Positions 28,242 to 55,661 of a stretch of DNA of 64,000 nucleotides are shown here, piece after piece. This DNA comes from Methylobacterium aquaticum (GTDB taxonomy: Bacteria; Pseudomonadota; Alphaproteobacteria; Rhizobiales; Beijerinckiaceae). The stretch lies in assembly GCF_016804325.1 (NCBI RefSeq), contig NZ_CP043627.1, positions 3,857,001 through 3,921,000 on the forward strand. Reading direction: 5' to 3'. Within the stretch, counting starts at the first letter, position 1. Every line of letters starts with the position of its first letter. Position numbers and translations under genes: made by a program. The notes below the pieces were generated by a model, which was not told the DNA's origin, ran no database searches, and was given only the letters and a program-made list of their open reading frames with translations.

Positions 28242-28618
28242 CGTCATTCCGGGGCCGCGCAGCGGAGCCCGGAATCCAGAACCGCGGAAGGTCCAGAAAA
28301 AAGCGGAACGCTGCCCTAAATCTCCTGAATCACCTCAGAGCCTGTTTGAGCAGAGTGATTTGACAAAAACTGAGAAGAATTAGGAGATATCCTACCCCTC
28401 CACCTCATCCTGAGGTGCGACCGCAGGGAGCCTCGAAGGAGGGCTCCAGAAGCCTCTGCGATCCCTGGAGCCCTCCTTCGAGGCTCCCTGCGGTCGCACC
28501 TCAGGATGAGGTTAGAGGGTAGGATGATCCCGCTCGCCTCAAGTCTTGGGTAGAAGTCCTGCTCAAACAGGCTCTGAGCGTCTGGATTCCGGGCTCCGCT
28601 GCGCGGCCCCGGAATGAC
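28242..28618. repeat. Family B palindrome (B3), interrupted by a family D element
   Basis: It starts GTCATTCCGGGGCCGCGCAG and ends GCGGCCCCGGAATGAC, like B2, but its right half is separated by 245 extra bases (28334-28578), which are a family D element. Confidence 0.88.
28334..28578 (+). mobile_element. MITE-like family D element, copy D1, with family A core
   Basis: Terminal inverted repeats are perfect over 20 bases: CTCAGAGCCTGTTTGAGCAG at the left and its complement at the right end. Inside are unique flanks (GATTTGACAAAAACTGAG at left; GCCTCAAGTCTTGGG at right) and a complete family A palindrome at 28403-28511. It encodes no protein. Interruption of repeat B3 shows that it moved as a unit. 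Confidence 0.8.
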
Positions 28619-55037: not shown

Positions 55038-55162
55038 ATACCAACGGTCGTTGAAAACGACCTTTGGTTCCGTTCTCGAATTTTCGTCAAGCCTCTGGCT
55101 TGGCATAGAAAATTCGAGATGGCTCAATGGCCCGATGCGTCAGCATCTTGGGCCATTGGTAT
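55038..55162. repeat. Inverted-repeat element E (ATACCAA...TTGGTAT)
   Basis: The 7-bp ends ATACCAA and TTGGTAT bracket 125 bases with an internal hairpin CAATGGCCC-GATGC / GCATC-TTGGGCCATTG (55125-55158) and a smaller one CGGTCGTTGAAAACGACC. It is directly followed by family D element D3. No gene is seen from 54919 to 55661. Confidence 0.5.
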
Positions 55163-55163
55163 C

Positions 55164-55632
55164 AGAGCCTGTTTGATTGACTCAAGCACTTGCTCCCACA
55201 CACGACCTCACCCTGAGGTGTCAATCGATTGAAAATCGACTGACCTCGAAGGAGGGCTCCAGGGATCGCGAAGACTTCTGGAACCCTCCTTCGAGGCTCC
55301 TTTCAGTCGCACCTCAGAGCCTGTTTGAGCAGGATTCCCACCCAAGACTTGAGGCGAGCGGGATCATCCTACCCGCTAACCTCATCCTGAGGTGCGAACG
55401 AAGTGAGCCTCGAAGGAGGGCTCCAGGGATCGCAGAGGCTTCTGGAGCCCTCCTTCGAGGTCAGTCGATCTGCGATCGACTAACACCTCAGGATGAGGTG
55501 GAAGGGTAGAATATCTCCTGATTTTTCTCAGTTTTTGTCAAATCACTCTACTCAAACAGGCTCACAGGATGAGGTCGGGAGAGGGATGGAAAAGGTCGTT
55601 GCAGCTAAATTTTCGCAAGTCAAACAGGCTCT
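55164..55632. mobile_element. Outer MITE-like family D element (D3), split by a second D element
   Basis: Ends AGAGCCTGTTTGATTGACT (left) and AAGTCAAACAGGCTCT (right) are inverted repeats. Its family A core starts at 55206 (CCTCACCCTGAGG) and breaks off at 55316 (CACCTCA); the missing AGGATGAGG resumes at 55566, after the inserted inner element. Confidence 0.75.
55314..55563 (-). mobile_element. Inner MITE-like family D element (D2), inverted relative to D1
   Basis: Left end CTCAGAGCCTGTTTGAGCAG is identical to D1. Right end CTACTCAAACAGGCTC differs from the D1 end at one position. Internal flanks are those of D1 in opposite orientation (ACCCAAGACTTGAGGC at left; CTCAGTTTTTGTCAAATC at right). 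A complete family A palindrome (55380-55498) is the core. Confidence 0.8.
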
Positions 55633-55661
55633 CGATTCTGTCGAGCAGATCGACCAGATTT

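Follow-up and report, generated by a model that had tools for sequence, protein, structure and literature searches.

Nested miniature elements with IS5-family-type ends in a Methylobacterium genome

Duplication of a TNA target triplet belongs to the IS427 and IS1031 groups within the IS5 family of insertion sequences (IS). Members of IS427 have been listed with 2- and 4-bp repeats (PMC3281130). Within Methylobacterium, MiniMdi3 of Methylobacterium extorquens is described as a MITE of ~400 bp related to ISMdi3, and Table 1 of that description gives 4 and 8 MITEs in two genomes (PMC2680597). Other IS are described as targeting REP palindromes, namely ISRm22, ISPpu9, ISPpu10, ISPa11, ISRm19, and ISPsy8, and the same account puts the IS5-family element ISNm1106 near REPs only (PMC1525189).

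The locus considered here lies in a stretch of 64,000 nucleotides (C1:3857001-3921000, hereafter the window) of a 7.28-Mb Methylobacterium genome. We put at about 0.9 the probability that it holds two MITEs with IS5-family-type ends, a 247-bp element inside a 217-bp element, which would have been moved in trans by an IS5-family transposase whose choice of target leads to nesting.

Architecture of the nested locus

The sequence and repeats of the locus are as the initial annotation described them, and the nesting is real: a complete 247-bp unit splits a 217-bp unit (Table 1). That annotation spoke of one family D copy inside another. The nesting stands, but the copies are of different subfamilies, the outer of the 217-bp type and the inner of the 247/263-bp type. 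The breakpoint of the inner element falls within the palindromic A core, which is shared by both. The triplets around the window copies are unequal for the inner element (TCA/ACA) and for the outer one (TCA/TCG). Divergence from the respective consensus is 3.6% for the inner copy and 2.3% for the outer copy, where the medians are 3.6% (28 inner copies) and 3.3% (15 outer copies). Rfam at gathering thresholds gave no match in the whole window. The window also holds a further inner-type element of 237 bp (28338-28574), with exact 12-bp ends and flanks TCA/TGA.

Table 1. Coordinates of the nested locus (window positions), of the nested loci genome-wide, and of transposase pieces in the same genome
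Feature	Coordinates	Strand	Remarks
Third small element (family E here)	55039..55161	.	123 bp, TACCAA...TTGGTA, TCA both sides; abuts outer element
Left TNA flank of outer element	55162..55164	.	TCA; doubles as right triplet of adjoining 123-bp element
Outer element, whole	55165-55631		217-bp unit, interrupted; TIRs 55165-55176 / 55620-55631
Outer element, left part	55165..55316	+	TIR GAGCCTGTTTGA, left flank, most of palindromic A core, to CACCTCA
Left target triplet of inner element	55314..55316	.	TCA
Inner element, 247-bp type, complete	55317..55563	+	TIRs 55317-55328 / 55552-55563, each exact across its 12 bp; A core of its own at ~55379-55499
Right target triplet of inner element	55564..55566	.	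ACA; 1 base off TCA
Outer element, right part	55567..55631	+	from GGATGAGG to TIR TCAAACAGGCTC
Right flank of outer element	55632..55634	.	TCG; 1 base off TCA
Nested locus	window		
Nested locus	C1:3482-4076		
Nested locus	C1:4640317-4640781		
Nested locus	C1:900617-901129		host of another subtype
921-bp-type transposase piece	C1:458148-458693		71% identity, residues 81-265
921-bp-type transposase piece	C1:1363989-1364219		56% identity, residues 185-268
921-bp-type transposase piece	C1:4318815-4319135		48% identity, residues 1-107; 88 bp from perfect end

If the inner element is excised together with one triplet, CACCTCA meets GGATGAGG and a 217-bp unit is restored that is collinear with uninterrupted siblings. 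Of 17 further 217-bp-type copies aligned with the restored unit, 14 are collinear apart from small gaps; the remaining three deviate by a larger deletion, an insertion, or a foreign end. The order of insertion and the place of the 247-bp MITE in the 217-bp MITE can be read directly from the locus.

When 66 elements (two mismatches or fewer) were checked for an enclosing terminus pair, clear nesting of element in element was found at four distinct loci genome-wide, window included. In three of these (the window, C1:3482-4076, and C1:4640317-4640781) the inner element has entered a 217-type host at one and the same position. Relative to the host, the inner element in the window lies in the other orientation from those at the two other loci, which means that at least two independent insertions hit that site. 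That the target was the palindromic core of another copy, as first proposed, agrees both with the restored host and with these further loci. The nested loci at C1:3482 and C1:6974729 are counted once, as probably one locus at both contig ends; the ends of C1 (~3 kb and 6.974 Mb) appear to overlap, as they agree fully for 1204 bp and, with one-base shifts, stay similar further out. Nested matches at 212287, 3018279, and 4227198 are doubtful, with weak host ends, and were left out of the count.

The C1:3482 locus also holds a 123-bp element of another family. This family (TACCAA...TTGGTA, with TNA triplets) occurs beside or inside D-type elements, and the copies listed are the one in the window, L001 1530-1652, L023, L080, and L046. 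Triplets are equal in four of these five, one of the four being a contig-end duplicate.

Termini, target duplications, and empty sites

The terminus 13-mer gives nine matches in the window with up to two mismatches, against 0.53 expected on shuffling. In the genome it has 123 exact copies (60 forward, 63 reverse), and its reversed control has 0. DNA was taken around 100 of the 123 exact sites, 37 further sites, and the 40 strongest element matches, and termini 130-330 bp apart with no more than four mismatches in total were paired. This gave 75 pairs, a set without some copies past 5.13 Mb and without degenerate copies such as C1:3392796; one pair is a contig-end duplicate and some are probably chance. 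Flanking triplets are identical in 47 of the 75, and all 47 are TNA (26 TCA, 19 TGA, 2 TAA). With shuffled right flanks, identical triplets number 24.9 +/- 3.6, with a maximum of 38 in 10,000. Some of the 28 pairs without identical triplets are probably chance pairings.

The initial annotation gave both elements the same termini. Both do end in GAGCCTGTTTGA, the 12-bp terminal inverted repeat (TIR) common to the outer and inner elements, but the leading A assigned to the terminus is part of the flanking TNA triplet and not of the element, so the inner right end reads TGAGCC. The leading A lies outside the TIR, and the elements make a 3-bp TNA target duplication. With lengths of 217 and 247/263 bp, which exclude a full transposase gene, 12-bp TIRs, a TNA duplication, dispersed copies, and one empty site, the elements are MITEs. 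An element of 238 bp (C1:863332-863569) is chimeric, pairing an outer-type end with an inner-type end, and TCA flanks it on either side. In the plasmid collection, matches were found in four Methylobacterium plasmids, in none of which (0/4) did one place cover 80% of the query.

The empty site belongs to a 217-bp-type copy with TCA on both sides (C1:3779611-3779827). In 11/11 congeners searched, from a set of one genome per species, its flanks are joined by a single TCA and the element is absent; this copy's site is the one verified by alignment out of 11 joined sites put to the search. The junction is nearly base-precise in the closer congeners, and in six of the 11 congeners a few bases before the TCA vary in length. 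By eye, this copy sits at a triplet resembling the stop codon of a neighboring gene, and the duplication would keep the stop. At the locus of the window, both flanks were seen in two of 29 congener loci (G071 and G004), and neither has the elements; a base-precise empty site was not obtained there, as the intergenic DNA of these two is too diverged to align. A constant joint occurrence of the two nested copies, which would have told against mobility, was not seen: their own genome has uninterrupted siblings, and the cluster is missing from these two congeners. The initial annotation had taken the elements to be mobile, and the TNA duplications, the restored host, the sibling absent from congeners, and the additional nested loci all uphold this.

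Partner transposase and target choice

A search for transposases with matching ends covered 95 IS5-type loci, 25 from the same genome and 70 from 15 congeners, some of them overlapping. One congener (G063) has two intact 921-bp IS (L212 and L221) with GAGCCTGTTTGAGG at both ends, identical over 14 bp, and with TCA duplications; an autonomous IS5-family element with the ends and duplication of the MITEs thus exists. In a relative of 890 bp from G023, one end carries a single mismatch and the other none. Against NCBIfam NF033580 (IS5 family transposase; cut-off 110), the L212 and L168 proteins reach 154.5 and 166.6 bits, respectively, and they also exceed the cut-offs of DUF4096 and DDE_Tnp_1. 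Among GTDB representatives, a scan turned up 31 loci with a transposase related to the 921-bp type (56-96% identity), of which 27 are in records titled Methylobacterium. At least one such end (one mismatch at most) is present at 28 of the 31, and both ends with equal triplets at five. The likeness between MITEs and IS ends after ~13 bp, so the MITEs are not simple deletion derivatives. The proposal that the elements would be moved in trans gains support from such a transposase in congeners, which may well have moved the copies. The RAYT or IS110 partners suggested alongside it are unneeded, since an IS5-family transposase has the matching ends, in keeping with the TIRs and TNA duplications.

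In the genome of the window, a protein search with the 921-bp type found only pieces and no intact partner transposase. It gave 12 matches and no close full-length copy; apart from the pieces in Table 1, the matches are short (<=53%) or at most 36% identical. The protein of the 890-bp IS has nine matches there, none above 43% identity. Of the IS5-type transposases in this genome (10 DUF4096 and 15 DDE_Tnp_1 matches), none is bounded by GAGCCTGTTTGA on both sides. The complete homologue closest to the 921-bp-type transposase (C1:6588102) is 36% identical, with GAGTCCGTT as its ends. Because an intact partner was not found in this genome, the MITE families are probably immobile or quiescent in it now. 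Among the 28 inner and 15 outer copies, the highest pairwise identity is 98.9%, with medians of 93.1 and 92.6%. At C1:457718-458693 lies a remnant of a matching IS, its left end split by a 263-bp MITE with TGA on both sides; by eye, the remnant near C1:458000 contains a 123-bp-type element with a changed end.

The target analysis used 65 elements, which are the 75 pairs minus nine with more than two mismatches and minus the duplicate. Inner-type elements were defined by GAGCCTGTTTGAGCA at either end and outer-type elements by length. Within the A palindrome, the CACC-TCA-GGATGAGG site (up to 3/15 mismatches) is the target of 25/41 inner-type copies, 0/17 outer-type copies, and 0/7 others (Fisher p = 6e-6 for inner versus outer and p = 1.7e-7 for inner versus all others); with up to 2/15 mismatches, it is the target of 21/41 inner-type copies. 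A strict CCTNAGG stands at the target of 21/41 inner-type copies (17 in A, and four of the 16 outside A) versus 0/17 outer-type copies, while TCT on at least one side marks 14/17 outer-type versus 7/41 inner-type copies. A full TCTNAGA as the outer target fails, as it is strictly present in 2/17. In the window, A sites make up 1.6% of TCA/TGA triplets, 24% of CT[CG]AG, and 16/17 of CCT[CG]AGG. The simplest reading is that the inner subfamily prefers CCTNAGG, which in this window is almost equal to the A palindrome; the palindrome or a cruciform could still be what it recognizes. As the A palindrome is the core of both elements, both carry a landing site, and this core together with the target choice results in nesting.

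The palindrome itself is abundant, its 15-mer CACCTCAGGATGAGG having 460 exact copies in the genome. With the 217-bp element as query, 88 of 111 genomes of the genus (own included) match. Among the matches listed, most cover just the core, at about positions 42-190 of the 217-bp element, and the full-length ones outside its own genome are in G030, G023, and G063. From this distribution, the palindrome is widespread on its own and appears to have been captured by the MITEs. A more tentative idea, well short of even odds, is that a miniature transposon captured an abundant palindrome that was its own preferred target, so that each new copy would add targets and the family would grow by repeated self-nesting.

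Order of events, alternatives, and comparison with known systems

The 217-bp MITE landed first, in an intergenic-looking stretch, and the TNA duplication seen for its family has decayed at this copy. Later, the 247-bp MITE of the sister subfamily entered the TCA of the CACC-TCA-GGATGAGG site in the right arm of the outer palindromic core. The 123-bp MITE of the third family stands at the left TCA of the outer element and probably arrived after it. The D-type elements were very probably moved by an IS5-family DDE transposase whose recognition sequence would be GAGCCTGTTTGA and whose target would be TNA, in most cases preceded by C and followed by G. An IS5 transposase is named as the mover because of the identical ends and the duplications of the intact 921-bp IS, and of the 890-bp relative, in congeners.

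Whether one such transposase serves both subfamilies is a separate matter. The inner elements (GAGCCTGTTTGAGCAG) may depend on an enzyme of the 921-bp IS type and the outer ones (GAGCCTGTTTGATTG / ...CTTG) on a relative like the 890-bp IS of G023, a division that we consider slightly less probable than a coin toss. Base 13 fits it: the inner MITE has a G there, as does the 921-bp IS, whereas the outer MITE and the 890-bp IS have C or T. The differing preferences for A sites, CCTNAGG, and TCT fit it too. Yet only one intact copy of the 890-bp type was seen among the 95 loci, with unequal flanks (TGA/TCA). The 921-bp IS, moreover, does not clearly share the inner target: in seven copies of its type with both flanks and equal triplets, C precedes in 7/7 and G follows in 6/7, but CC..GG is present in only 1/7.

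The inner copy could have arrived without transposition, through an exchange between A palindromes (homologous recombination or gene conversion), as the core is common to both elements and the breakpoint lies within it. The junction, however, coincides exactly with the TIR ends and has TNA triplets, insertions in both relative orientations fill the same site at different loci, and many copies lie off A sites (16/41 inner and 17/17 outer), which makes this very unlikely. Unlikelier still are static conserved hairpins of the REP kind, or REP-type elements that owe their movement to RAYT or to an IS110 recombinase. The abundance of the core palindrome is what such repeats would show; a REP/RAYT element, though, would be a palindrome without TIRs and target duplications, and here both features are present, along with a sibling absent from every congener searched. 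To our knowledge, RAYT and IS110 elements make no such TIRs and 3-bp duplications.

A hunch from reading the sequence has become a resolved MITE family with a likely transposase, a target preference, and an order of insertion. The locus is a natural setting for testing how nesting and the spread of palindromic repeats through Methylobacterium DNA are driven by a small target motif that an element contains. A literature search, with most subscription papers and ISfinder outside its reach, gave no match for the letters of the palindrome or for "nested MITE" with added terms. The letters of the terminus occur in PMC3477587, in what that text presents as an IncF plasmid primer.

The elements are of a known kind, here well resolved. 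Like IS5-family MITEs, they are short, without room for a transposase gene, and have IS5-type TIRs, a 3-bp TNA duplication, and many copies; they differ in an interior that is a REP-like palindrome, matched in most congeners, and that shows no transposase-gene remnant so far as could be seen. MiniMdi3 is likewise an IS-related MITE of the same genus and, going by its description, is set apart by its length and few copies (PMC2680597). With the REP-targeting IS, as those are described, they share recurrent insertion at a single site within a palindrome of high copy number (PMC1525189). In contrast to those IS, the element here is a MITE with IS5-type ends, its preference is partial (25/41), and it carries the target palindrome within itself.
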